Positions 6,868 through 25,819 of a stretch of DNA of 64,000 bases are shown piece by piece. A model generated the notes under the pieces. The model ran no database searches. It was not told the origin of the DNA and was given only the letters and a program-made list of their open reading frames with translations. The DNA lies in the NCBI RefSeq assembly GCF_000426725.1, contig NZ_AUFX01000005.1, positions 124,001 through 188,000 of the forward strand. The letters run 5' to 3'. The position numbers and the translations under genes are program-made. How positions within the stretch are numbered: position 1 is the stretch's first letter; each line of letters starts with the position of its first letter. The DNA is from Sporocytophaga myxococcoides DSM 11118. Lineage in GTDB: Bacteria; Bacteroidota; Bacteroidia; Cytophagales; Cytophagaceae.

Positions 6868-8049
6868 TCAAAATCTGAATACAGCAACCATTGGCTTACC
6901 AGCTTCCGGCATTTCCTCTGCAGTTACCTCGTAAACAAATCCACCGTTTTCAATAGTGAATGCAGCAGCTTTAGTAGTCAAAGAGGTACTATCTTTGTCG
7001 GTAGCTTTACCCATCTTGGTTTCCTTTGACTGTTCATTAAAGGTTCCCCATAAATGGTTATTTTTTTCGATAAAGAGTGTATCAATTCTTCCGGCCTGGG
7101 CTTCTCTTACAATTTCATCTATTGAGTAAGATGTTTTGCCAGTGCCTGCAAAAGCGTGATAAGTATCAATTTTCTTTTTAAGAGGTTTGAGCATTTCTCC
7201 TCTCATTACATTAATAGATTTTTCAAAAATCTCTTGATCAAGAAGGTGATCAGGGTTTCCATTTACACCTTCTTTGAAAAGGTTAGGATATGAATTTGCC
7301 TTCTGATAAACTGAATGCATATTATCAACAGCATAAAGCACTAAAGGTAATTTTTCTTCGTCCCTTAAAGCTTCGTTGACCCCAGTATTGATCTGTCTGA
7401 AGAATTCCAGAGTATACTGATCATTGTAGAAACTATCTGTATGAGAATGGAGAATAGTGCCGCCCCCCATGTTTTTGCTTCCCATATTTTTGCCTTGCAT
7501 GGTTCTTTTGGTAAATTCATACTGGGATAATATTTCATCTATGTTTTGTGGAACTGAAGAAGGAAGGGCAATTTCCTCAAAGTGATACCTGCTATTCCTG
7601 AATAATTTTACTTTTTTCTGACTTAAAGCCAATGTATAAAATTTCCCTTCTTCTCTGAAAAAGATAAATAAAGGATCAAGTACAAATGCATTACCCACAT
7701 AGTTTTCAGCTTCAAATGAAACTGGCAAGCGGAAGTAACTTATGTTTTCATCATTCATAAACACTGCCAGGCCTTTGTCTTGAAGATGCCAGAACCCGGT
7801 ATCATTCAAAAGGTTAAAAGCCGGAGCCAATAGTTCTGTAACATACTTTTCCTGATAATTCTTTTTCAGAAGTTTATCTCTAACCTCTGTCAGTTGGTTC
7901 TTAAACTGCAACCAGTCAAGGCCTTCATTTACTTCCATCCCTTTATTGTGGGTTGGTATAAATATAGAAATACAGTTTTGGCTTTTAATACCTGCAAGTC
8001 TTTCGAAATCTTCCCTCGTTAATCTATCCATATCCATATCTATCATCAT
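6868..8049 (-). CDS. baeRF-type protein (bacterial release-factor-1-like fold)
   Basis: Cytoplasmic protein of 393 aa. It begins MMIDMDMDRLTREDFERLAG, then CISIFIPTHNKGMEVNEGLD, which resembles the start of the bacterial archaeo-eukaryotic release factor (baeRF) families. The C-terminal third has a helix-rich segment (YSIDEIVREAQAGRIDTLFI) and ends ENGGFVYEVTAEEMPEAGKP, matching the L7Ae-like end domain with a variable charged stretch. The middle holds the LYAVDNMHSVYQKANSYPN region seen in baeRF members. The family is thought to act on ribosomes or stress translation, but no function is established. Single gene, convergent with 6413-6823. Confidence 0.65.
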   Translation of the reverse strand: MMIDMDMDRLTREDFERLAGIKSQNCISIFIPTHNKGMEVNEGLDWLQFKNQLTEVRDKLLKKNYQEKYVTELLAPAFNLLNDTGFWHLQDKGLAVFMNDENISYFRLPVSFEAENYVGNAFVLDPLFIFFREEGKFYTLALSQKKVKLFRNSRYHFEEIALPSSVPQNIDEILSQYEFTKRTMQGKNMGSKNMGGGTILHSHTDSFYNDQYTLEFFRQINTGVNEALRDEEKLPLVLYAVDNMHSVYQKANSYPNLFKEGVNGNPDHLLDQEIFEKSINVMRGEMLKPLKKKIDTYHAFAGTGKTSYSIDEIVREAQAGRIDTLFIEKNNHLWGTFNEQSKETKMGKATDKDSTSLTTKAAAFTIENGGFVYEVTAEEMPEAGKPMVAVFRF

Positions 8050-13298: not shown

Positions 13299-14588
13299 TT
13301 ATATATTCAGCAGATTCCATCGATTCAAAGCTTCTCCCGAATCAAGCTTTTCCTTCAATACAGCAATCAGATCTTTATGTTGTACCAGGTTAAACTTGGT
13401 GATAATAACTGCAGCCTGATAAATGATGGCTTCCCTTGCATAATTTTTGTTTCCCTTCAGCGCCGCTATTCCTTCCGATAATACATCTTCTGGTTTGATG
13501 CTTTTATCTTGTTTACTTTCCAAAAGTGGAAGCCCAAAGTCCTCGGGAGAAACCAATGACTCATTAATTTCATTGCCATCATAAAATATCGCAGTAGAAC
13601 CTCTGCTTAGCGTTAACTGTGTTGATCCCTCAAGTCCTTTAAAGATAAGGGCCATTTTACATTCACCTTGCTCTTTAAGTTGCTTAACAACCTCTTCCTT
13701 ATAGTGAGGATGTGTGTATCCGGAAACTAGATAATTTCCCTGAGTACTTTGAATTGGTTGTAAAAGCTTTTCAAAAGTTGCAAGGAAAGGACGTTTAACC
13801 ATTTCCTTTCTCATTCTCTTAAGCAGAAAAAGGTCATTGAAAAATATCTGCTGGTCCAGATAACAAAATCCTATAGATTTGTTTTCTAATGCTTGTTGAG
13901 CCTGGAAAACAGATATGAGTGGATTTTTACCTGCCAGTTTCAAAAGTTGATGAGAAGTATAGCCCTCTTTAGGTGCAACTTTATCGATGGAGTGAACAAT
14001 GCAGGGAATGTCTAATGATGCCAGCAATGCTGCAGTAAATAATGAAAAATTAGAAGTCCTGTTAAAGCCATCATAACTATCGGCAATATCAACAATTACA
14101 GGAAGATCAGTTTTTACTCTCTCTGCTTTATTCCATAGGCCTGAAAAGAAAGCTTTGTTTTCAATGAAGGTCTCTCGTTTTAACCTTTGTGATTCAAGGA
14201 AAGCACCTTTAAGATATTCTGGTGTTTGAATGTTAAATAATTGTTCTATTCCACTTTCAGCCTCTTCTTGAGACAAGTCTTCATGTTTTATGACTTTAAG
14301 GATCAGCTTATAAAAATCATCCCTTGTATCACCTGAGAAAAATGGTACTATTTCATTCGGAAGAAATTCTGAAGGAGCAGCTTTAACCTTTTCTATCCAT
14401 TCTCTTTCGTGATTATTGGGTTCAAGGGTAAGCAGAGCCGTAACCATGGTAGCGACAGTGGTAAGGCTTACATCGGGAGATTTAAATAAATTTTTAAGCT
14501 CATTGAGCTCTTCTGCTATAAGACTTTTGCTGCCTTCAGGCCCTATGCCTTTTTTCTTCAGCAATTCCGCTAATCTCTCCTGTACCAT
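13299..14588 (-). CDS. TrpD2/YbiB-like protein (anthranilate phosphoribosyltransferase fold)
   Basis: Cytoplasmic protein of 429 aa. The N-terminus is a helical bundle with a TrpD-like layout (GSKSLIAEELNELKNLFKS, TTVATMVTALLTLEPNNHE). The alpha/beta part has VIVDIADSYDGFNRTSNFSL where true TrpD carries the GTGGD pyrophosphate loop, followed by AALLASLDIPCIVHSIDKVAPKEG and later MALIFKGLEGSTQLTLSRGS. The loss of the phosphoribosyl-pyrophosphate motif and the ending match the TrpD2/YbiB group, reported to bind nucleic acid rather than make tryptophan. No trp genes nearby. Function in this organism unknown. Confidence 0.7.
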   Translation of the reverse strand: MVQERLAELLKKKGIGPEGSKSLIAEELNELKNLFKSPDVSLTTVATMVTALLTLEPNNHEREWIEKVKAAPSEFLPNEIVPFFSGDTRDDFYKLILKVIKHEDLSQEEAESGIEQLFNIQTPEYLKGAFLESQRLKRETFIENKAFFSGLWNKAERVKTDLPVIVDIADSYDGFNRTSNFSLFTAALLASLDIPCIVHSIDKVAPKEGYTSHQLLKLAGKNPLISVFQAQQALENKSIGFCYLDQQIFFNDLFLLKRMRKEMVKRPFLATFEKLLQPIQSTQGNYLVSGYTHPHYKEEVVKQLKEQGECKMALIFKGLEGSTQLTLSRGSTAIFYDGNEINESLVSPEDFGLPLLESKQDKSIKPEDVLSEGIAALKGNKNYAREAIIYQAAVIITKFNLVQHKDLIAVLKEKLDSGEALNRWNLLNI

Positions 14589-14872: not shown

Positions 14873-15301
14873 ATGGAAATAATGGAAAAGGCATTGCCAA
14901 AAGTTGAAAAACTTGTGGCAGAGAAGGGGAAAACTATTCTTGCAATTGATGACGTTGAGTCAACTTTAGATATAATTAATTGCACTTTGTGCAAAAAATA
15001 TAATGTAGTAAAAAAGGCAAACGGTAAGGAAGCGTTTGAGTGGATGCATGAGGGGAATATACCGGATTTAATTATTTGTGATTTGCGTATGCCCGAGATG
15101 GATGGATTTGAATTTATAAAACATATCCGGTCCAGTGGATTTTTCAGAGAGGTGCCACTCCTAATTCTATCAAGTTATGAATCAAGCAGCGTGAGGATTC
15201 AGTGTCTTAAATGTGGCGCTGATGATTTTATGATGAAACCATTCAATCCTGAAGAACTTGAAATAAGAGTAGAAAATATTTTCAAAAGAATTTATAAGTA
15301 A
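14873..15301 (+). CDS. Single-domain response regulator (CheY-like receiver)
   Basis: Protein of 142 aa consisting of one receiver domain after a 20-residue N-terminal extension. The acidic pair is Asp26-Asp27 (AIDDVES), the phospho-acceptor Asp70 (IICDLRMPEMDG), the switch Ser100 (LILSSYES) and Lys122 (MMKPFNPEEL). All the residues needed for phosphotransfer are present and there is no output domain. Nine bases separate it from the next gene, whose N-terminus is a receiver without these residues, and it is the first gene of the polysaccharide operon. It is likely to control that pathway through protein contact; no histidine kinase is in the window. Confidence 0.88.
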   Translation: MEIMEKALPKVEKLVAEKGKTILAIDDVESTLDIINCTLCKKYNVVKKANGKEAFEWMHEGNIPDLIICDLRMPEMDGFEFIKHIRSSGFFREVPLLILSSYESSSVRIQCLKCGADDFMMKPFNPEELEIRVENIFKRIYK

Positions 15302-15310
15302 AAAATCAGT

Positions 15311-16534
15311 ATGGAGCTTATTACACAGAAGAAGCTGGCTTATATAGACAATCAGGCAGATCGGCTAGAATCATTTTCAAATCGAATGGCAGATGGGTTT
15401 GATGTTATACATTTTGAAAACGGATTTAAGTTTTTCGAATGGCATTCTAAGGGTAATAAAATCGATGCAATAATTTCTGCTGGACAATTACACAGCCCGA
15501 ATGGGCTGTTATTGTTGCAGCATTTAAAACAATCGGATGTAGAGCCGGTTCCTTTTGTTTTTCTTGTAGACAGCATTACAGGACAAGTCCGTTCTGAAAT
15601 GCTTAAACATAGTGTGTCTGAAATTTTCGAGCAGAATGTTTCAAAAGATCCATTTGCATTAAGATTAAATTACCTTATAGAAAATAAAATTCATTACAAA
15701 CGAGCATATAAAGAAGGCTTTGTAAGGCATCCTGAGTACAAGATTCCTTTAGTTAAGAGGATATTTGATATAGTATTTGCAACACTAGCACTTATATTTC
15801 TAAGTCCATTCTTTCTTTTGCTTGCTATATTAATAAGGCTTGAATCAAGAGGTCCAGTTTTTTATGCGGCGAAAAGGGTTGGTACCGGCTACAAGATTTT
15901 TGACTTCTATAAGTTTCGATCGATGAGTGCCGATGCTGATAAAAAGCTAAAGGACCTTGCACACTTGAATCAATACAATAAAAATAAAAAAGGTGCCGAA
16001 AGTGACAATAAAAAAGAAACAACAGGAGCTGTGGAAGAAAAGTCTCAGCACACAAACCTTTGTGAAGAGTGTGCCAGGGGAAATAAAGTTTGTCAGTCCA
16101 TGCTTTTCCTAGATGGAAAAGAAATCTGTGAAAAGAGATTCCTTTTGGAAAAGAAAGAAAAGGATGCGGCTGCATTTATAAAAATAAGTAATGACCCAAG
16201 AATTACCAAGATTGGTAAGTTTATAAGGAATACTAGTATAGATGAATTGCCTCAACTTTTCAACGTATTGAAAGGGGATATGTCTATTGTTGGTAATCGT
16301 CCGCTTCCGCTTTATGAAGCTGAAAAGATTACAGTGGATCAGTTTACCCTAAGATTCCTAGCACCTGCAGGCATTACAGGTCTTTGGCAGGTAACAAAAA
16401 GAGGAACCAAGGAAATGTCAGAGGCTGAAAGAATTCAACTAGATAATGACTATGCCAGGAATTATTCATTCTTGAGAGATCTTAAAATTATTGCGAAAAC
16501 AATTCCTGCATTATTACAGAAAGAAAATGTATAG
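15311..16534 (+). CDS. Pseudo-receiver fused to polyprenyl-phosphate sugar-1-phosphate transferase
   Basis: Initiating sugar-phosphate transferase (WbaP/WcaJ C-terminal type), 407 aa. Residues 8-125 form a receiver-like domain in which the phospho-acceptor region reads AIISAG and the lysine region IFEQN, so it cannot be phosphorylated normally. Residues 148-178 contain the membrane segment (RIFDIVFATLALIFLSPFFL), then GPVFYAAKRVGTGYKIFDFY and KFRSM. The catalytic core resumes at NDPRITKIGKFIRNTSIDEL, PQLFNVLKGDMSIVGNRPLP and GITGLWQV. Between them (about 207-288) lies an extra stretch with four cysteines at 251, 254, 261 and 273, not part of the standard fold. It would load the first sugar on undecaprenyl phosphate. 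Confidence 0.85.
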   Translation: MELITQKKLAYIDNQADRLESFSNRMADGFDVIHFENGFKFFEWHSKGNKIDAIISAGQLHSPNGLLLLQHLKQSDVEPVPFVFLVDSITGQVRSEMLKHSVSEIFEQNVSKDPFALRLNYLIENKIHYKRAYKEGFVRHPEYKIPLVKRIFDIVFATLALIFLSPFFLLLAILIRLESRGPVFYAAKRVGTGYKIFDFYKFRSMSADADKKLKDLAHLNQYNKNKKGAESDNKKETTGAVEEKSQHTNLCEECARGNKVCQSMLFLDGKEICEKRFLLEKKEKDAAAFIKISNDPRITKIGKFIRNTSIDELPQLFNVLKGDMSIVGNRPLPLYEAEKITVDQFTLRFLAPAGITGLWQVTKRGTKEMSEAERIQLDNDYARNYSFLRDLKIIAKTIPALLQKENV

Positions 16535-16535
16535 T

Positions 16536-17288
16536 ATGAATACCCTTTGGAATAATAAGCATTACGCTTATGGTATGCTTCTTTTGATATTCACTGTGAT
16601 TTCCCGTTCTACGTTCGGACAAGTAAAAAATGATAGTATTGTAGTACTTCAGGATCTTGAAACACAATTACTTCCCCTGGATGAAATCGTTTCGATTGCG
16701 GTGGAGAGATCTCCCTACATAAAAGTGGAGGATGCTAGTATAAAAGCTCGTAAACAGGAGATTCACTTAGCCAGAAAGGATTGGCAAAAAGACATCCAGG
16801 CCTTTGGTAACTATGCCACTGGTGACCAAAAGTTTGGTGTATCATATGGAGACTTTAATCGTCAGACTAATTTCCTTAATGGATACAGAGTAGGAGTAAA
16901 CGTGAGTGTACCATTGTTTGATATAACGGCCAGACATAATAGAATAAAGTTTAGTAAAGCAGAGCTGGAAATGGCTCAAAGTAATAGAGATAGGGTAATA
17001 GTAGAATTAAAAAGGCAAATAGCGGCTGAATATAATAACCTGATTGTTGCCCAGAAGCTTCTGAAGATAAGAAGCGAAGGCCTTCAGAATTCACAGCTTG
17101 TATATCAGATGGCTGAAAAGCAATTTAAGGAAGGAACAATCTCTCTGGAAGATTATTCCTCAGTAAGTAATACTCTTTATATGGCTGAATCTAACTATGA
17201 GATTGCCAGAAAAGATTATAATACAGTTTACAAACAATTTGAATATTTAATAGGGGTAAGTATTGGTTCTTTAATTAAACAAAAATGA
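16536..17288 (+). CDS. Short TolC-like outer membrane efflux family protein
   Basis: Exported protein of about 250 residues. I set the start at MNTLWNNKHYAYGMLLL, just after the stop of the transferase gene; an earlier ATG at 16527 would overlap by 8 nt. A signal peptide ending TFGQ is followed by LDEIVSIAVERSPYIKVEDA and long amphipathic coiled coil (SKAELEMAQSNRDRVIVELKRQI; MAEKQFKEGTISLEDYSSV), features of the TolC/OEP family. TolC proteins have two such repeats and over 400 residues; only one repeat is present. In this operon it could be the outer-membrane or periplasmic exit component for polysaccharide, a job normally done by Wza. Confidence 0.7.
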   Translation: MNTLWNNKHYAYGMLLLIFTVISRSTFGQVKNDSIVVLQDLETQLLPLDEIVSIAVERSPYIKVEDASIKARKQEIHLARKDWQKDIQAFGNYATGDQKFGVSYGDFNRQTNFLNGYRVGVNVSVPLFDITARHNRIKFSKAELEMAQSNRDRVIVELKRQIAAEYNNLIVAQKLLKIRSEGLQNSQLVYQMAEKQFKEGTISLEDYSSVSNTLYMAESNYEIARKDYNTVYKQFEYLIGVSIGSLIKQK

Positions 17289-19504
17289 CCTTTGGTGATA
17301 TATTTAGGATACTCAGAAAGCACTTGATGCTTCTGATACTTTTTCCTGTTGCAGTGGCTTCACTCGTATACATGAAAACAAGGAAGAGGGAAATGGAATA
17401 TGCTTCTACATGTCTGATTTATACAGGAGTTGCAAGCGGATACAATGTAACCACAGAAGAACATCCAAGGCTTGATCACAATGCTGTAAGTAATGCATTC
17501 GACAACCTTTTAAATACGTTAAAGTCAAGAGAAACAATACAGGAGGTTTCTTTAAGGCTTGTGGCATCTCATATTACCTTAGATAAACCTGATCTGAGAT
17601 ATATCTCTCCTCAGAAGTATAGTGAAATAAAATCTATAGTGCCAGATTCTGTTTTGCGTCAGGTAAAAGCAGCCACTCCTGAGGCTACTTATGAAAAGAT
17701 GCAAACTTATATAAGTAAGAATAAATTCAATGTATTTTCAGCGCTTGTAGCATCTCAAAATGGTATTTATGGTGTTGATAAAATCCGTGGAAGAGTAAAT
17801 GCTATCAGAAAGGAAAACAGTGATATGCTGGACGTGTCTTACAGTGCTAATGATGCGGCAATATGTCAGCAAACATTGTTATTGTTGGCTCAGGTTTTTA
17901 TAAGAAAATATAGTGATATAAAAGAGTCTGAAGTCAAGCATGTAGTTACTTATTATTCAGATCAGACAGATAAAGCAAGGAGAAGACTGACGGATGCTGA
18001 ACTTAAGCTTAAAGAGTTTCAGGTAAAAAATAGAATCATCAATTTCGACGAACAGGCAAAAGTATTGTCAGAGTCAAGACAAACATATGCAGACGAGATT
18101 GAAAAGGAAAAAATGACGCTTGCTTCAGCTCAGGCAAGCCTTGTAAGTCTTGAAGAAAGACTGAAGGGGAGAAAGAATATTATGGAGAGTAATGACAGGG
18201 TATTGGCTAAAAGACAAGAGCTGTCCGATATTAATTATAAGATTGCTAATGCTCAGAATTTTGGGGAAACGAAAGAAAAAGTTAAAGAATTAACCGACAA
18301 AGCAGATGCTATAAAAAAAGAACTTAAAGATCTTGTTAATAATCTTTACTCTATCAATAATAGTCATGAAGGTATTCCAAGCGATAATATACTTCAGCAA
18401 TGGCTAAGCAATGTTTTAACTGTCGAGGAGAGTTCGGCAAGGCTTAAGATTATGCAAGAGCGTTTGAATTCCTTTAATTCTGCTTATAATGATTTTACTC
18501 CGCTGGGTTCTTTGTTGCTTACTTTAAAAAGAGAAGTGCAGGTAGCAGAGAAAGAATATATGGATAAGCTGGAAGCTCTTAATATGAACCAGCAGAGATA
18601 TCAGAATGTGAAGATGTCAAGTAATATCAAGCTTCTGGATCAGCCTTTTTATCCGGTGAAGCCTATCGCTTCAAAAGATTTTGTATTGATTCCGCTTGCA
18701 ATGATAGCTTCGTTTTTGCTGCTACTAAGTTTTTATCTGGCGAAGGAATTATTGGACTCTTCAGTTAAAAATTCTGCAAGAGCACAGCGCTTGACTGGAT
18801 TTGAAGTGGCAGGTGTATTACCTAAAGTGACTCAGAGGAACAGAATTACAGAATATTTCGAAGATTCTCTAATAGAGCAAGCAGTAAACAGAATAGTGCT
18901 GGAAACAGAAAAAACCGCTCCTACAAAGAAAACCAAAATTATTCTTGTTGCTGGTACACAGATCTCAGAAGGGAAGACATGGATGATTTATAAAATGGCC
19001 AAACGTATTTCCGACCTTGGATATGTTTCAGAAATATTTACACCAGGTTCAGAAAAAGGCTATCGTCCTGAAACTATTGATAAACGAGAGGTTGTAGATA
19101 TTTCAAAGGTGAAAATCAGACATTATGAAATTATTGAAAGGATGGTTCCTGCCAGTAAAATCAATGAAATACTTAAGACGATAGATAAAGCAGATTTTGT
19201 TTTTCTTGAAATACCTTCTCTTCAGGAATATCAGCTTCCTCTGCAGCTGGTTAAAGAAGCTGATCTGTGCCTATTGGTTCTTAGAGCAGATAGACCTTGG
19301 AAAGATTCTGATAACTATCTTTCAGGTCTTCTGACAAAGGTATTAAAATCAAAACCATTATTGGTTCTTAACAAAGTTACTACAGACAGACTGATACAGA
19401 TTTATGGAAGGGTGCCAAAATGGTTCTCTGCTAAACTTGTCAGCAAAGATAATCAGGATAAAAATGTGACCAAGAAAAATAAAGTATCTTATGATCCGGA
19501 ATAA
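17285..19504 (+). CDS. Wzz/GumC-like polysaccharide co-polymerase with degenerate kinase domain
   Basis: Inner-membrane protein of 739 aa, overlapping the previous gene by ATGA. The N-terminus has the Wzz layout: TFGDIFRILRKHLMLLILFP membrane segment, then a long periplasmic coiled-coil region (residues about 210-440), then KPIASKDFVLIPLAMIASFL with a second helix. The cytoplasmic C-terminal part is a BY-kinase-like P-loop domain: ILVAGTQISEGKTWMIYKMA resembles Walker A with GKT kept, and VFLEIPS resembles the Walker B end. The C-terminal tyrosine cluster of active BY-kinases is missing. It should set chain length and drive export. Confidence 0.85.
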   Translation: MTFGDIFRILRKHLMLLILFPVAVASLVYMKTRKREMEYASTCLIYTGVASGYNVTTEEHPRLDHNAVSNAFDNLLNTLKSRETIQEVSLRLVASHITLDKPDLRYISPQKYSEIKSIVPDSVLRQVKAATPEATYEKMQTYISKNKFNVFSALVASQNGIYGVDKIRGRVNAIRKENSDMLDVSYSANDAAICQQTLLLLAQVFIRKYSDIKESEVKHVVTYYSDQTDKARRRLTDAELKLKEFQVKNRIINFDEQAKVLSESRQTYADEIEKEKMTLASAQASLVSLEERLKGRKNIMESNDRVLAKRQELSDINYKIANAQNFGETKEKVKELTDKADAIKKELKDLVNNLYSINNSHEGIPSDNILQQWLSNVLTVEESSARLKIMQERLNSFNSAYNDFTPLGSLLLTLKREVQVAEKEYMDKLEALNMNQQRYQNVKMSSNIKLLDQPFYPVKPIASKDFVLIPLAMIASFLLLLSFYLAKELLDSSVKNSARAQRLTGFEVAGVLPKVTQRNRITEYFEDSLIEQAVNRIVLETEKTAPTKKTKIILVAGTQISEGKTWMIYKMAKRISDLGYVSEIFTPGSEKGYRPETIDKREVVDISKVKIRHYEIIERMVPASKINEILKTIDKADFVFLEIPSLQEYQLPLQLVKEADLCLLVLRADRPWKDSDNYLSGLLTKVLKSKPLLVLNKVTTDRLIQIYGRVPKWFSAKLVSKDNQDKNVTKKNKVSYDPE

Positions 19505-20699
19505 AAATATCCTGTGCATGGCGCTTACTACGTGGGATAAGGACTTTGTAAATACTGTTGTGAAAATGATGAGTATTTTAAGTAAGCAAAACAGAGTTCT
19601 GTTTGTTGATTATGAGTATACGGTAAAAGATATTATTGCGGCTTTATCCGGAAAGCAGAAAGTTCCTATTACAAGAATGATAGGACTTGAAAACCGCTTG
19701 AGAACAGTTAATACTGTTTATGGAAGCGAAATTCATGTGCTTACACCTCCGCCAGTATTACCTATTAACTGGATAAAAAATGAAAATCCTTACAGGGTAA
19801 TGCTGAAGCTTAACGGTAATCTGGTAAGGGGAGCAATTCAAAGAGCTTTAAAGACATTAAACATGGAAAATCCAATTGTAGTGAATGGATACAATCCCTT
19901 CTTTGGACTTCCTTTGGTAGGTGATTTTAATGAACTCTTGAATATTTATTATTGCTACGATGAAATTAAAGGAGATCAATGGTACCATTTTCATGGTCCT
20001 GAGATAGAAAAGGAATACATTAAAAAAACAGATGCAGTTATTACAACATCTGATGCTTTGTATAAATCCAAGAGTCCTCTTCATCAGAACTGCTTTGTTG
20101 TTAAAAATGGCGTGGATTTTGAACATTTCAATGCTGTTGCTGATGTTAAATTGAAATCTCCTCATGCCCCCAGAATTGTTGGCTATACAGGAAGTATAGA
20201 TGAAAGGTTTGATTATGAACTTCTATCTTATTCAATAAAAATGCTTCCTGAAGTGCAATTCAATTTTATTGGAAGGGTTACCAATGAAATGGCAAGAATG
20301 GCATTGAAGAAATATCCGAATGCCAAATTTATGGGAAGTCGGAAGCCTTATGAAATTCCATCTCTTCTTAAAGATATGGACGTAGGTATCATACCATATC
20401 TCAAGAATGAGGTTACAAGCGGAGTATATCCGCTTAAGATTAACGAATACATGGCCGCTGGCAAGCCTGTTGTTATGACTGATTTTGCAAAGATACCTGA
20501 GTTTGATAAGCATGTCTGGATAGCGAATTCAAAAGAAACTTTTCTCAATAGTCTCAGAGATGCTTTGTACAATGACTCTTTAGTGAGAATGAAATCCAGA
20601 ATAGAATTTTCAAAACATAATTCGTGGGAAAATAGAGTTGAGCAGTTCTCTTCAATAATAGAGAGGATGCTGGAGTTGAAAAAGGAAAGAGTTATATGA
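19491..20699 (+). CDS. Glycosyltransferase, GT4-type (GT-B fold)
   Basis: Cytoplasmic protein of 402 aa whose start overlaps the previous gene by 14 nt. The C-terminal half has the GT4/GT1 signatures VVKNGVDFEHFN, IVGYTGSIDERFDYELL, FNFIGRV, NAKFMGSRKPYEIPSLLKD and VYPLKINEYMAAGKPVVMTD, with the E-x7-E-type segment that contacts the nucleotide sugar donor. The N-terminal half includes YYCYDEIKGDQWYH, seen in related TuaH-like enzymes. It would add a sugar to the lipid-linked repeat unit of the polysaccharide. Sugar specificity cannot be read from sequence. Confidence 0.85.
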   Translation: MIRNKNILCMALTTWDKDFVNTVVKMMSILSKQNRVLFVDYEYTVKDIIAALSGKQKVPITRMIGLENRLRTVNTVYGSEIHVLTPPPVLPINWIKNENPYRVMLKLNGNLVRGAIQRALKTLNMENPIVVNGYNPFFGLPLVGDFNELLNIYYCYDEIKGDQWYHFHGPEIEKEYIKKTDAVITTSDALYKSKSPLHQNCFVVKNGVDFEHFNAVADVKLKSPHAPRIVGYTGSIDERFDYELLSYSIKMLPEVQFNFIGRVTNEMARMALKKYPNAKFMGSRKPYEIPSLLKDMDVGIIPYLKNEVTSGVYPLKINEYMAAGKPVVMTDFAKIPEFDKHVWIANSKETFLNSLRDALYNDSLVRMKSRIEFSKHNSWENRVEQFSSIIERMLELKKERVI

Positions 20700-22033
20700 A
20701 GTTTTTAAAGAAGATTTTGTCCAATAATAATATTCTCTCTTTAACTGGTAATGTCATTGCGGCAGGTTTAGGTTTTGTAAGTTTTGCCTTACTCGCAAGA
20801 ATATTCTCAAAGGAAGATTTCGGTAATTGGATCTTGTTCGTTACTGTTTATGTCTTTATTGAATTACTAAGAGTGGGCTTCTTGCAGACTCCCCTTGTTA
20901 AATTTTGTTCAGGTGTGAGTGAAAAGGAGAAGGAGAAAGTAATCGGAAGTTCATGGTTGTTTGCGATTCTGATTACCATTTCTTTTGTGCTTTTAAGCTT
21001 CATGCTTAGGGGAGTAATGCTTTATTACATTAATTCTGATGGAGCAATTTATTTTTTTAACTATTTCTGGATATTAATAATTGTTACACTTCCTTATAAT
21101 TTTTCTTCTTGGATACTGCAGGTGGATATGAAGTTTAGTAAAATTATATATATACGTTTGATTAGTCAAGGTGTGTTTATAGTGCTGCTATGTGCAGAAT
21201 TATTCTTGCATAGAGGAAAAGAGTTTATTGTACAGTCTTATCTGATCTCAAATTTATCCGGAAGTTTATTTTGTCTGATAGCTGGATGGACTAATATCAA
21301 AAGCATTAGATTGGCAGAGTGGAAGAGGGTTAAAGATTTATTTAATTTCGGAAAGTTTAGTATGGGCACTATGGTTGGTGCTAATTTATTGAGAAGTTCT
21401 GACACATTCTTAATCGGAGCTTTCTTGGGAGGTGAGGCAGTTGCTATTTTTAATATTCCTCTTAAATTATTTGAATTGGTTGAAATCCCTTTAAGGAGCT
21501 TTGCTGCAACTGCTCTGCCTTCTTTTTCGAGATTGGTAAATAATAAAAATCTTCAGGGGCTTAGTAAAAAACTTGAGAGTACAGCAGGTATGTTCAGTAT
21601 TATGTTACTTCCTGTTGTTGTGTTCTGTATAGTGTTTGCTGAGTATTTGGTGGTTTTATTAGGAGGTGAAGGATATGCTGAATCTGCAAATATTCTCAGA
21701 ATATTTGCGCTTCATGCTGCTTTAATGCCACTCGACAGATATTCAGGTATGGCTTTGGATGTCCTCAGCCGTCCTCAACAAAATATGTTCAAGGTTATTG
21801 TTATGGTGTGCATCAATTCCCTGGGTGTGTTCATCGTAATTAAGTCCTTTGGCATGTTATGGCCTATTGCCATTGTCTCAATACTTACCTTTTCTGTAGG
21901 AGTCGTTATGGGGGTATTCTTCTTGAGAAAAGATATTAAGATTATTCCTTCAAGGTTATTTTCAGAAGGATTTAAAGAAATCAAAAGTTCTGCTAAAAAG
22001 TTGAAGAGTAAACTAAACCTCAGTATTGACTGA
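20696..22033 (+). CDS. Wzx-type polysaccharide flippase
   Basis: Integral membrane protein of 445 aa with about twelve hydrophobic segments, starting NNNILSLTGNVIAAGLGFVSFALLARIFSKEDFGNW (read in parts), the typical opening of the polysaccharide transporter (PST/MVF) family. Internal features such as GANLLRSSDTFLIGAFLGGE and LFELVEIPLRSFAATALPSF match Wzx proteins. It would turn the lipid-linked repeat unit to the outer face of the inner membrane. Overlaps the upstream glycosyltransferase by ATGA and the next gene by one base, showing translational coupling. Confidence 0.85.
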   Translation: MKFLKKILSNNNILSLTGNVIAAGLGFVSFALLARIFSKEDFGNWILFVTVYVFIELLRVGFLQTPLVKFCSGVSEKEKEKVIGSSWLFAILITISFVLLSFMLRGVMLYYINSDGAIYFFNYFWILIIVTLPYNFSSWILQVDMKFSKIIYIRLISQGVFIVLLCAELFLHRGKEFIVQSYLISNLSGSLFCLIAGWTNIKSIRLAEWKRVKDLFNFGKFSMGTMVGANLLRSSDTFLIGAFLGGEAVAIFNIPLKLFELVEIPLRSFAATALPSFSRLVNNKNLQGLSKKLESTAGMFSIMLLPVVVFCIVFAEYLVVLLGGEGYAESANILRIFALHAALMPLDRYSGMALDVLSRPQQNMFKVIVMVCINSLGVFIVIKSFGMLWPIAIVSILTFSVGVVMGVFFLRKDIKIIPSRLFSEGFKEIKSSAKKLKSKLNLSID

Positions 22034-23478
22034 TGTCTGATCGTGATATCTTAATCGAAAATGTGAAAAAATATGGCCAATGGCCTTTACTGTTGCTATT
22101 TGCATATTTTTTAGGTTTGCTGTTTGCCAAAGGAGGCATTATTATTACCGCTGCAGCGGCTTCTCTTCCATTGATACTTGTGGTTTTTGCCATTATATTC
22201 TCATATCCTTTATCAGGTATGATTATGGCCATGGTAGTAGGCTTGATTGTCAATGGTGTTACCAGGTATGTGTCAGCTCCTTTAGGGACATCTCTCGATA
22301 TTGTGTTAGTCATTAGTATATTCTCTGCACTGTTCAGTGTTTCTTATGAAAATATCAAAAAACTGAATAATAGCTTAATTTGGGTATTGTTAGTGTGGAC
22401 AGGGTTTACTATGCTCGAAATACTAAATCCTGAAGCTGTAAGCTTTGAAGCATGGTTCTATGCAGTAAGAGCGATATCCTTTTATATTATTTTTCTTATT
22501 ATACTAACATTCCTGGTACTGAAAACAGAGAAATTCATTGATGTGTTTATTAATTTATGGATGATTGGGGCTTTGGTTGCTGCTCTATATGGAATGAAGC
22601 AAATGTATATAGGTCTTGATCATGTAGAGAAGGCTTGGTTGGAAACAGCTGCAGACACGCATATTTTGTTTGGGAAAATAAGGTATTTTTCATTTTGCTC
22701 AGATGCAGGGCAGTTTGGTGCCTTTATGTCTTTTTCTACTCTTGTAGCAGTTATATTGTCACTGAAATCTGACTCCACTTTTAAGTCGGTATTTTATTTT
22801 ATAGTAGCTGTACTGTGTTTCTGGGGAATGGCTATATCAGGAACCAGAGGTGCTATGTTTGTGTTTGTTGGAGTTTTGTTTTATCTCTTGCTCACTAAGA
22901 ACTTTAGGATATTCACACTTGGGTTTATTGTGATGGCTGCAATATTTTGTTTCTTACGGTTTACTTTCATCGGCCAGTCTAATTATCAGATACAAAGGAT
23001 GAGAAGTGCAGTAAATCCCCAAAGTGACCCTTCTTTCAAAGTAAGGCTCGAAAACCAGAGAAAGTTAAAAGCTTATCTTGCATCGAGGCCAATAGGTGGC
23101 GGAATAGGTACAATTGGCTACTGGGGCAGCCGTTTCAGTCCTGGAACATTTTTAGCTGAAACACCTCCGGATAGTCACTATGTCAGGATTTGGGCAGAAA
23201 CAGGAATCGTTGGATTGACGATTCATATACTTACTTTATTGTTTATTCTCGCAAGAGGTTTCTATCTTGTTTATAACCTTCGAAATCCTTACCTGAAACA
23301 GAAGATGATGGCTTTGTACGCTGGTGTATTTGGGATTCTTGTAGCGAGTTATGGTAATCAAGTTTTAGCTCAGTTTCCTACAATCGTGTTTTGGAGCATC
23401 TCCGTTGGTGTTATTTTTCTTGCTCCATCTTTGGATACTGACAAGACTTCTGATACTGTGAAGCCTGTAATGTATTGA
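22033..23478 (+). CDS. Wzy-type polymerase / O-antigen ligase family membrane protein
   Basis: Membrane protein of 481 aa with many hydrophobic segments. The O-antigen ligase/polymerase signature region is visible: a large loop starting around RMRSAVNPQSDPSFKVRLEN and GGGIGTIGYWGSRFSPGTFL, then ETPPDSHYVRIWAETGIVGL, the conserved H-x-x-x-x-x-x-E-x-G segment after which membrane helices resume. Upstream DAGQFGAFMSFSTLVAVIL and AISGTRGAMFVFVGVLFYLL also fit. In a Wzx/Wzz operon it is most likely the polymerase joining repeat units in the periplasm. Its end forms part of a terminator hairpin. Confidence 0.85.
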   Translation: MSDRDILIENVKKYGQWPLLLLFAYFLGLLFAKGGIIITAAAASLPLILVVFAIIFSYPLSGMIMAMVVGLIVNGVTRYVSAPLGTSLDIVLVISIFSALFSVSYENIKKLNNSLIWVLLVWTGFTMLEILNPEAVSFEAWFYAVRAISFYIIFLIILTFLVLKTEKFIDVFINLWMIGALVAALYGMKQMYIGLDHVEKAWLETAADTHILFGKIRYFSFCSDAGQFGAFMSFSTLVAVILSLKSDSTFKSVFYFIVAVLCFWGMAISGTRGAMFVFVGVLFYLLLTKNFRIFTLGFIVMAAIFCFLRFTFIGQSNYQIQRMRSAVNPQSDPSFKVRLENQRKLKAYLASRPIGGGIGTIGYWGSRFSPGTFLAETPPDSHYVRIWAETGIVGLTIHILTLLFILARGFYLVYNLRNPYLKQKMMALYAGVFGILVASYGNQVLAQFPTIVFWSISVGVIFLAPSLDTDKTSDTVKPVMY

Positions 23479-23504: not shown

Positions 23505-23687
23505 AACAATCTGTATTTTTAGTAAGTTTCTCTTAAAAGAACTCATTAACTAACGATGTAATAAGAGAATAGGTGGAACTGCGGATAGGATAATAAATTT
23601 TTTACAGATAATCTGATTCTTTATTCCTTACTAATTCTATGATACACATCAAGGTTGTGGGTTGGTATTATTAAATTTCATTTTGAT

Positions 23688-24623
23688 ATGAGAAATGTGA
23701 GAGAGGATATTTACCCGTTGGTCTCAATAGTAACAATAAATTATAATGGAGCTGATGTGACATGTGCACTTCTTGAATCTTTAAGGAAAATTACCTATCC
23801 CAATGTTGAAATCATTGTAGTGGATAATCATTCAAAAGAAGATCCTGGAGTTATAAAGGAAAGATTTCCAGAGATAAGGCTGATCAGAAATAAGAATAAC
23901 AACGGTTTTGCTGGTGGCAATAATGTGGGTTTTAAAGCTGCTAAAGGTAAATACTTTCTTATGCTGAATAATGATACAGAAGTGGCTCCGGATTTTATGG
24001 AACCTCTTGTCTCCAAGTTGGAGTCAGACCCTGACGCGGGCGCAGCAACTGCAAAGCTGATATACTATCATAGTGATAGAAGAATTCAATTCGCAGGAAG
24101 TACTGCCATTAATCCTATTTCAGGGAGAAATAAATATATCGGTCAGCATGAAAAAGATAACGGGCAATATAACCATTGCTGCTGTACTCCTTATGGACAT
24201 GGGGCTGCAATGATGATTCCAAGAAAGGTAATTCAGGAAGTGGGTTTAATGCCTGAAATGTATTTTCTTTATTATGAAGAGCTTGATTTTTGTGAAAGAA
24301 TAAAAGATGCCGGATATACGATCTGGTTTGTGGGTAATTCAAATGTGTTTCATAAAGAGTCTGTGACAGTGGGTAAACTTAATCCTATGAAAATTTATTA
24401 CCTTACCAGAAACAGGTTGTTGTTTATGCGCAGAAATGTAAAAGGATTAAAGCTCTATCTAAGCATGATCTATTTTACTTTTGTGGCGTTGCCAAAAAAT
24501 TTATTGACTTATCTGTTCTCAAAGAAGGTAGATTTTGCAAAGGCTTTTATGAAAGGTTATTTATGGAATTTTAAGAATAAAGCATTATTGGAGAATAAAA
24601 GGATTAAACTTGAAGCCGCATGA
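23688..24623 (+). CDS. Glycosyltransferase family 2 (rhamnosyltransferase-like)
   Basis: Protein of about 311 residues from the ATG at 23688 (MRNVREDIYPLVSIVTINYN); an upstream in-frame ATG at 23655 adds eleven residues without conserved sequence. GT2 motifs are IVTINYNGADVTCALLESL, EIIVVDNHSKED, NNGFAGGNNVGFKAAKGKYF, LMLNNDTEVAPDFME (DxD-like metal site) and YYEELDFCERIKDAGY. These are typical of GT2 rhamnosyltransferase-like enzymes. Separated from the polymerase by 209 bases and coupled to the next GT2 by an ATGA overlap. Confidence 0.85.
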   Translation: MRNVREDIYPLVSIVTINYNGADVTCALLESLRKITYPNVEIIVVDNHSKEDPGVIKERFPEIRLIRNKNNNGFAGGNNVGFKAAKGKYFLMLNNDTEVAPDFMEPLVSKLESDPDAGAATAKLIYYHSDRRIQFAGSTAINPISGRNKYIGQHEKDNGQYNHCCCTPYGHGAAMMIPRKVIQEVGLMPEMYFLYYEELDFCERIKDAGYTIWFVGNSNVFHKESVTVGKLNPMKIYYLTRNRLLFMRRNVKGLKLYLSMIYFTFVALPKNLLTYLFSKKVDFAKAFMKGYLWNFKNKALLENKRIKLEAA

Positions 24624-25819
24624 TTGCTATTAAAATTATACTATTAATTCTGTTTGTTTATTTATCGGTCTGTGTATTTTATGGATTTCTGTTCTCTTTA
24701 GCCGGAAGACTTGGTGGACTGCGAAGGTATAAATTACGGGAACCTTCGGGAAGATTTGCAGTGTTTATACCATCATATAAAGAAGATGAGGTAATTCTTA
24801 ACTCAGCCAAGGAAGCTTTGAAACAAGATTATCCTCAGCATCTGTATGATGTCATAGTGATAGCAGATTCATTACAAAACAGCACATTGAATTTGTTGAA
24901 ATCAATGCCTGTTAAAGTGATTGAAGTTTCCTTTGATAAAAGTACTAAGGCCAAGTCTCTTAATGTAGCTTTAAGTCAGCTCGATGAAAACGCATATGAC
25001 TATGCACTCGTGTTAGATGCTGATAACATTATGAAAGCAGATTTTATAAGAAAATTAAATTCCGTTATTTCTGTTAAGGGCATAGGTGCTGTACAAGGGC
25101 ACAGGGTCGCAAAAAATATGAATACTAATTTTGCCATACTGGATGCCGTGAGTGAAGAGATTAACAATCATATTTACAGAAGAGGTCACAGAGTTTTAGG
25201 ACTTTCTTCCGGGCTTATTGGCTCAGGGATGGCTTTTCATTATAAGTATTTTAAGAACGTTATGGCTACCAATAATGCTATTGGAGGCTTTGATAAAGAA
25301 CTGGAGCATAAGCTTCTCAGGGATAAAGTTAAAATTGAATATGTAGAAGATGCCTATATATTGGATGAAAAGGTTGAAAATGCTGAAGTGTTTCAGAATC
25401 AGCGCAGGAGGTGGATATCTGCTCAGTTGCACTATTTCAGAAAATATTTCTTTCAGGGGCTTTGGCATCTTATAACAAAAGGAAATATGGACTTCTTTGA
25501 CAAAGCTTTCCAGCAATTTTTGGCACCAAGGGTCTTGCTTTTAGGAGTGACAGGTGTGACAGCAGTAGTATCCGCAATATTCGAATTTGCAACGGGGATT
25601 ATAGCATTTCCTGGAGCGTTCTATTGGATAAGCTTGTTCCTTGTGCAGATGTTGGGCTTGACTATTGCAGTACCAGCTGAATTCTTTACTAAAAAGAATT
25701 TAAAGGCAATAGCACAGCTGCCTAAGGCTTTTATAGTTATGCTTTTGGTACTATTTAAATTAAAGGGAGCTAATAAAAAATTTATCCATACGCCTCACTC
25801 AGGAAGTTCGAAAGTATAG
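24620..25819 (+). CDS. Membrane glycosyltransferase family 2
   Basis: Protein of 399 aa with an N-terminal membrane helix (IKIILLILFVYLSVCVFYGF) and two or three C-terminal helices (VLLLGVTGVTAVVSAIFEFA; SLFLVQMLGLTIAVPAEFF). The GT domain has AVFIPSYKEDEVILNSAKEA, YDVIVIADS, KAKSLNVALSQL, YALVLDADN (DxD) and the processive-type NQRRRWISAQL motif. The membrane topology and QxxRW-like motif resemble GT2 enzymes that make or extend beta-linked glycans, so it may be processive. Overlaps the previous GT by ATGA; followed by a convergent terminator. Confidence 0.8.
   Translation: MIAIKIILLILFVYLSVCVFYGFLFSLAGRLGGLRRYKLREPSGRFAVFIPSYKEDEVILNSAKEALKQDYPQHLYDVIVIADSLQNSTLNLLKSMPVKVIEVSFDKSTKAKSLNVALSQLDENAYDYALVLDADNIMKADFIRKLNSVISVKGIGAVQGHRVAKNMNTNFAILDAVSEEINNHIYRRGHRVLGLSSGLIGSGMAFHYKYFKNVMATNNAIGGFDKELEHKLLRDKVKIEYVEDAYILDEKVENAEVFQNQRRRWISAQLHYFRKYFFQGLWHLITKGNMDFFDKAFQQFLAPRVLLLGVTGVTAVVSAIFEFATGIIAFPGAFYWISLFLVQMLGLTIAVPAEFFTKKNLKAIAQLPKAFIVMLLVLFKLKGANKKFIHTPHSGSSKV

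Follow-up and report, generated by a model that had tools for sequence, protein, structure and literature searches.

By analogy, the closest described precedent for the gene pair examined here is EpsW/EpsZ of Myxococcus. In Myxococcus xanthus, phosphorylated EpsW, a single-domain response regulator, stimulates the phosphoglycosyl transferase (PGT) EpsZ post-translationally and controls, probably by direct contact, the enzyme that starts a Wzx/Wzy exopolysaccharide (EPS) pathway; in the published model EpsW touches both the cytoplasmic and the catalytic domains of EpsZ (PMC12802240). For the present locus the likeness lies in the pairing of the genes. EpsZ is a large PGT with a membrane bundle and a DUF (same source), whereas the enzyme described here carries a pseudo-receiver on a PglC-like core with a cysteine-bearing insert, and its receiver is encoded by the adjacent gene, unlike that of the EpsW/EpsZ pair. 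PleD of Caulobacter provides a precedent for the layout, with a live receiver, a dead receiver and a catalytic domain in the same order, and with rearrangement and dimerisation of receiver and pseudo-receiver driving function (PMC12632262). PleD is a single chain with a diguanylate cyclase (GGDEF) output, whereas here there are two genes and a PGT output. The large monotopic PGTs WbaP and WcaJ share the catalytic domain and its residues with our enzyme, but have a membrane bundle and a DUF, in place of which a pseudo-receiver is found here. That small monotopic PGTs can carry receiver domains has been published before (O'Toole et al. 2021, as cited in PMC12802240); no paper on the Bacteroidota receiver/PGT pair or its cysteines was found among the literature matches listed.

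The window, by which we mean the whole stretch of DNA analysed (64,000 nucleotides of Sporocytophaga myxococcoides DSM 11118), encodes the pair at the head of a series of genes that are, judged by their domain content, a Wzx/Wzy-type exopolysaccharide cluster downstream of the PGT:

14873..15301, plus strand: single-domain response regulator, 142 aa (Pfam Response_reg, 88.5 bits; phospho-site D26/D27, D70, S100 and K122 complete)
15302..15310, plus strand: intergenic gap of 9 nt after the TAA stop, both genes sharing one frame
15311..16534, plus strand: pseudo-receiver/PGT with a four-cysteine insertion, 407 aa (Bac_transf PF02397, 206.7 bits in two stretches; match to PglC)
16536..17288, plus strand: outer membrane efflux (OEP/TolC-like) protein (Pfam OEP; start codon uncertain)
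17285..19504, plus strand: weakly matched Wzc/Wzz-like chain-length protein (GNVR, 23.4 bits against a cutoff of 27.7)
19491..20699, plus strand: glycosyltransferase group 1 (domain match)
20696..22033, plus strand: flippase, Wzx-like (Polysacc_synt)
22033..23478, plus strand: polymerase/ligase, Wzy-like (Wzy_C)
23655..24623, plus strand: glycosyltransferase family 2 (domain match)
24620..25819, plus strand: glycosyltransferase family 2 (domain match)

The receiver frame ends in TAA, three codons follow and the PGT opens with ATG, all in a single frame. These coordinates, the 9-nt gap and the AIISAG and IFEQN stretches of the 15311-16534 product are all as an earlier note on this DNA had them, and the upstream receiver is complete, as that note had also claimed. 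The genome holds a second copy of the PGT (L002, 56% identity), preceded at 10 nt by a receiver gene of its own. The second copy of a sister species (L193, G003:C6:190000-193500) is broken into two overlapping frames, possibly a pseudogene or a sequencing error. Elsewhere in the window, positions 13299-14588, on the opposite strand and divergent from the receiver gene, give Glycos_transf_3 and Glycos_trans_3N domain matches, and positions 6868-8049 encode a bacterial release-factor-like protein of the baeRF family.

Results of a Foldseek search show that the catalytic part of the PGT matches PglC (8e37, E 1.9e-10). Two segments carry the catalytic residues:

15749..15844, plus strand: re-entrant membrane helix, D153-x12-P166 (D153 and P166 invariant in a 21-sequence alignment)
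16172..16531, plus strand: catalytic domain, C-terminal half, carrying D311-E312, R330 and D390 (invariant in the same alignment)

K201 is likewise invariant and R306 is present in at least 90% of the sequences, so that the D-x12-P re-entrant helix, lysine, arginine, D-E dyad, second arginine and distal aspartate that mark monotopic PGTs are all found; the meaning of the motif is taken from PMC12802240 and the residue-to-residue assignment was made in the present analysis. Because these seven catalytic and helix residues are invariant in 21 sequences, the PGT looks active. An AlphaFold2 model computed from 21 family sequences (pLDDT 73.2, pTM 0.40) displays a (beta-alpha)5 domain at residues 7-124 and a long helix at 147-178, the insert being poorly modelled. 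The N-terminal transmembrane bundle and DUF of large PGTs are not seen in it, no bundle preceding helix 147-178. The protein also scores below the cutoffs of TIGR03022 and TIGR03023, and no NCBIfam model listed for it reaches its cutoff. The earlier comparison with the WcaJ/WbaP fold thus needs adjusting: for an enzyme with no N-terminal membrane bundle and a PglC-like core, WcaJ/WbaP is a slightly wrong reference.

The N-terminal domain of the PGT is a receiver that has lost its phosphotransfer residues:

15329..15682, plus strand: pseudo-receiver domain, residues 7-124 ((beta-alpha)5 in the AlphaFold2 model; Z 15.8 against the ArcA receiver; phospho-Asp and Lys absent)
15620..15622, plus strand: E104, acidic in 46 of 48 fused receivers (column counts)
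15662..15664, plus strand: R118, Arg or Lys in 44 of 48 fused receivers (column counts)

Residues 4-127 adopt the receiver fold (VIA-align, r.m.s.d. 2.0 over 119 residues to 1xhf), which bears out the reading of a receiver-like N terminus without phospho-Asp or Lys, although Pfam Response_reg stays below threshold on this domain (17.1 bits against a cutoff of 30.2). A profile built from 57 upstream receivers scores above the HMMER inclusion threshold on 45 of 50 fused N-terminal domains (L040, L041, L048 and L143 left aside, the L127 N terminus being shortened), and fused and free receivers are therefore kin. A full canonical phospho-site is present in one of these 50 domains (L030), a count in which local alignments are gapped at the site columns in many cases; in a recount on the full alignment, with 48 fused domains left after de-duplication, Asp fills the phospho-Asp column in 13/48 and Lys the Lys column in 3/48. 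No separate receiver was found within 4.3 kb upstream of L030, or within 3.4 kb upstream of L029, whose fused domain is degenerate. A canonical fused receiver together with no free one is suggestive, and since L030 sits on a long tree branch it counts as one such case.

Positions 104 and 118 are the best kept charged positions of the fused domains. A third above 60%, K73, is basic in 36/48, which takes it over 70% when charge is counted; when identity is counted, that level is exceeded only at P81, at position 104 (Asp in 38/48) and at position 118 (Arg in 39/48). With the place of the conserved lysine (K105 in PhoB) as reference, position 104 falls at -4 and position 118 at +10, and the two correspond to D101 and R115 of PhoB. 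In OmpR/PhoB receivers the salt bridge at the centre of the dimer is formed at these places (PMC2586830 and PMC4511772), and in PhoB an R115D substitution is partly rescued by D101R (PMC4511772). The dead second receiver of PleD retains the same acidic/Arg pair. The retention of an acidic/basic pair on the alpha4-beta5-alpha5 face of a dead receiver, as read from aligned columns, would fit a receiver-receiver contact; alternatively, the acidic/Arg pair may brace the receiver internally.

The product of 14873-15301 folds as a receiver (Z 22.4 against 4ja2 in structure comparison) and has the D, D, D, S/T and K residues and the lack of an output domain that characterise single-domain response regulators. 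Its list of PDB sequence matches is headed by PleD, which leads by summing two receivers (56.5 + 31.8 bits); by single-domain score an ordinary receiver, 1nxo, is the closer match (77.8 bits), which speaks against a PleD-like reading. PleD was rejected as nearest structure, 1nxo scoring higher per domain, and is therefore used as a precedent for the layout and not as the closest relative. Against the EpsW model NF041866 the free receiver reaches 64.9 bits (cutoff 200) and is not an equivalog, and the PGT reaches 157.4 bits against the EpsZ model (cutoff 800). Because both scores stay below their cutoffs and no GGDEF is present, the pair belongs to neither system; by analogy with both, it most likely works like EpsW/EpsZ with a PleD-like geometry.

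Strong relatives of the PGT occur in at least 151 of 390 genomes of the order (E up to 1e-45) and, at E up to 1e-30, in 45 of the 395 phylum genomes, named ones including Sediminibacterium, Hymenobacter, Dyadobacter, Rufibacter, Flavobacterium, Mucilaginibacter and Prevotella; in the tree the named Cytophagia pair with order-mates of the window, which makes Cytophagales the probable order of the host. The best-hit loci were reduced to 69 distinct members by comparing the last 250 residues of each, and percentages drawn from this sampling are therefore not unbiased frequencies. A further 23 members, biased to close kin of the window, all have the four cysteines. An upstream receiver with KPF.P lies within 900 nt of the PGT in 57/69 members, the exceptions being L026, L029, L030, L052, L053, L127, L130, L131, L133, L134, L157 and L161; L053 has a degenerate receiver upstream and L127 a kinase gene at that place. 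Canonical phospho-site residues are found in 52 of the 57 upstream receivers. Three of the five that deviate have Glu at the phospho-site (L055, L132 and L138); L132 and L138 belong to one PGT clade, and their receivers could be permanently active.

Tree and column counts use 61 rows, the near-duplicates L009, L010, L011, L013, L014, L022 and L147 and the start-truncated L127 having been dropped. Fused and upstream receivers are both present in 45/61 members. The fused receiver is missing in 13/61, five of which have the upstream receiver and eight neither; the pseudo-receiver is therefore not always needed. Homologues thus bear out the earlier expectation in part: all four cysteines occur in 40/69 and both receivers in 45/61, but 29/69 lack the full cysteine set and 13/61 the fused receiver. 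Co-occurrence of the two receivers gives a Fisher p of 1.6e-5 over the 61 rows, with the degenerate L053 receiver counted as present and kinship ignored; a kin-aware test gives p 1, with only 2 independent pairs on starred branches, so that co-occurrence is not significant once relatedness is counted, a point against the switch proposed below.

The catalytic domain is interrupted by the insertion:

15974..16171, plus strand: insertion, residues 222-287 (low-confidence prediction of a hairpin-helix, pLDDT 38-69 in 10-residue blocks)
16061..16129, plus strand: C251-x2-C254-x6-C261-x11-C273

The four cysteines stand where the earlier note placed them, but its length of about 80 residues does not hold: KFRSM to NDPRIT spans 88-89 residues, and the net insertion is about 50-64, because ordinary PGTs also have residues between KFRSM and DELPQ. 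That distance is 105 residues here against 41-55 in the 61 PGTs outside the family (62 loci, one without a usable ORF), none of which has the insert or the four-cysteine pattern. An insert profile matches in 18/395 genomes of the phylum, and because 20 of its 21 places fall inside PGT genes the insert is not a chance feature; the odd place (L135) is a short open frame next to the end of what looks, by eye, like a catalase gene. Four short PGTs elsewhere in the phylum (L130, L131, L133 and L134) have the four-cysteine insert but lack a fused receiver, and no receiver was found upstream in the stretch examined; insert and receiver are therefore separable. No PDB sequence relative of the insert was found (best E 3.8).

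Among the 69 members the four putative metal-ligand cysteines are conserved together: 40 have all of them, 28 none of the four and one (L030) only the last. Of the 28, 27 are cysteine-free in this region and L054 has one unrelated cysteine; the Prevotella members lack the cysteines. The four-cysteine state switches at least 6 times on the tree. A long insert persists in 21 of the 29 members without the full set and is absent from eight, and the long cysteine-less inserts show, by eye and in many cases, an LLxxDDxVVxExxY-like hairpin-helix pattern. Cysteine loss that is nearly all-or-none is what a joint metal site would show, and a set that comes and goes as a whole while its scaffold persists is the behaviour to expect if the zinc is structural and can be replaced. 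On this conservation pattern, the cysteines most likely hold one structural zinc, within a hairpin-helix of which many relatives have a cysteine-less version. It is possible, though we doubt it, that they instead ligate an iron-sulfur cluster or act as a redox switch gating the PGT: nearly all-or-none conservation suits any metal site, and the C2-C3 spacing varies while C3-C4 is nearly constant. However, retention of the hairpin-helix pattern in cysteine-less inserts speaks for a replaceable structural zinc, and with no PDB sequence resembling the insert nothing favours a known cluster fold.

Taking these features together, free receiver, pseudo-receiver and PGT are probably a functional unit at the level of the family, and a two-component signal may switch the PGT directly instead of via its gene. 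We propose, with about even confidence for and against, that the two genes constitute a PleD-like switch, split over two chains, which acts on the initiating step of exopolysaccharide synthesis of the Wzx/Wzy type, with docking and a zinc-held lid. The proposal builds on the domain make-up, the pairing, the loss of the phospho-site, the conserved face residues and cysteines and the EPS gene context; phosphorylation, docking, the direction of the effect, the metal and the role of the lid are what we infer. A histidine kinase encoded elsewhere would phosphorylate the free receiver, which would then dock through its alpha4-beta5-alpha5 face to the same face of the pseudo-receiver on the PGT. Docking would alter the assembly, probably the dimerisation, of the membrane-embedded PGT and hence its activity, as has been suggested for phosphorylated EpsW and EpsZ, activation being assumed. 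The four-cysteine hairpin-helix would form a lid beside the catalytic segment, most likely with one structural zinc. The suggestion of heterodimerising receivers that control initiation, made in the earlier note, thus finds a fitting conserved acidic/basic face pair, but no confident contact: modelled by AlphaFold2 as one chain, receiver and pseudo-receiver are each well folded (pLDDT 81.8) with no confident orientation (pTM 0.50). In this model, TAA was read as Q and 23 aligned rows were taken from 45, since rows with the pseudo-receiver only aligned to the wrong half. The outcome counts against the split switch, but with a forced short artificial linker (4 residues) and 14 paired rows a pTM of 0.50 is therefore weak evidence either way. 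No single-chain fusion of receiver, pseudo-receiver and PGT was found among the matches listed. Within the list of strong matches the longest two frames, G652 and G724, were rejected as full fusions, being out-of-frame overlaps over the receiver gene.

Other arrangements of the same parts have been considered. The free receiver might contact the PGT catalytic domain directly, with the pseudo-receiver doing no more than fill the structural place that the cytoplasmic domain has in large PGTs; the five of 61 members with an upstream receiver and no fused one fit this reading, as does the contact of modelled EpsW with the EpsZ catalytic as well as cytoplasmic domain (PMC12802240). We nonetheless hold it unlikely, the fused domain being descended from receivers and keeping a dimer-face pair that a mere spacer would not need. 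That same conserved face would serve equally if pseudo-receivers homodimerised independently of phosphorylation and so assembled the PGT, the free receiver having another operon target or acting as a phosphate sink. Indeed, 15 pseudo-receiver structures are dimeric without phosphorylation, nearly all via part of alpha4-beta5-alpha5 (review, PMC12632262). Against such homodimers stands the free receiver encoded just upstream of the PGT in 57/69 members, and they seem to us distinctly improbable.

It is very unlikely that receiver and PGT are merely co-transcribed with no functional link, given that their adjacency is kept across Cytophagia, Flavobacteriia, Chitinophagia, Sphingobacteriia and Prevotella. 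Least of all would we expect the pseudo-receiver to sense a small ligand such as c-di-GMP, for which ShkA and Cle supply precedent only (PMC10333796 and PMC7288161); few polar positions are strongly kept, those charged above 60% being 73, 104 and 118, a weak argument against it.

A motif scan covering the window and L038-L055 found no kinase in the 64-kb window, which counts against the split switch; its kinase would have to be encoded elsewhere. Relatives offer hints of signal input. In G395, which is Flavobacterium-like (L164 and L165; G395:C1:841000-860000), genes for a receiver, an H-NOX (HNOB) protein, a PAS-type protein with, by eye, a kinase-like stretch, a FIST protein and a histidine kinase lie directly upstream of the PGT, a set compatible with possible nitric-oxide sensing. 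In Hymenobacter sp. UV11 the receiver is preceded, at a distance of 330 nt, by a hybrid kinase with Hpt, and in G041 a hybrid kinase is divergent to the receiver.

Post-synthesis control of the first polysaccharide-export step in bacteria is largely open. The EpsW/EpsZ case of a receiver acting on a PGT dates from late 2025, and its authors suggest a reach beyond myxobacteria (PMC12802240). If the present reading is true, the Bacteroidota family would extend receiver-on-PGT control across a second phylum, with Flavobacterium and Prevotella among its members. In its widest form, which we put forward tentatively and rate as somewhat improbable, Bacteroidota would widely use a two-gene PleD-like on/off switch on the first committed polysaccharide step, with a metal-held lid maybe moved by the switch or by zinc or redox state, and with nitric-oxide sensors (H-NOX, FIST) feeding it in some Flavobacterium relatives. 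How pseudo-receivers are activated remains a mystery according to a 2025 review (PMC12632262). Because the pair is common and its enzyme output can be measured, this activation becomes testable, and members with a fused live receiver, without a pseudo-receiver or without the cysteines are natural variants with which to do so.
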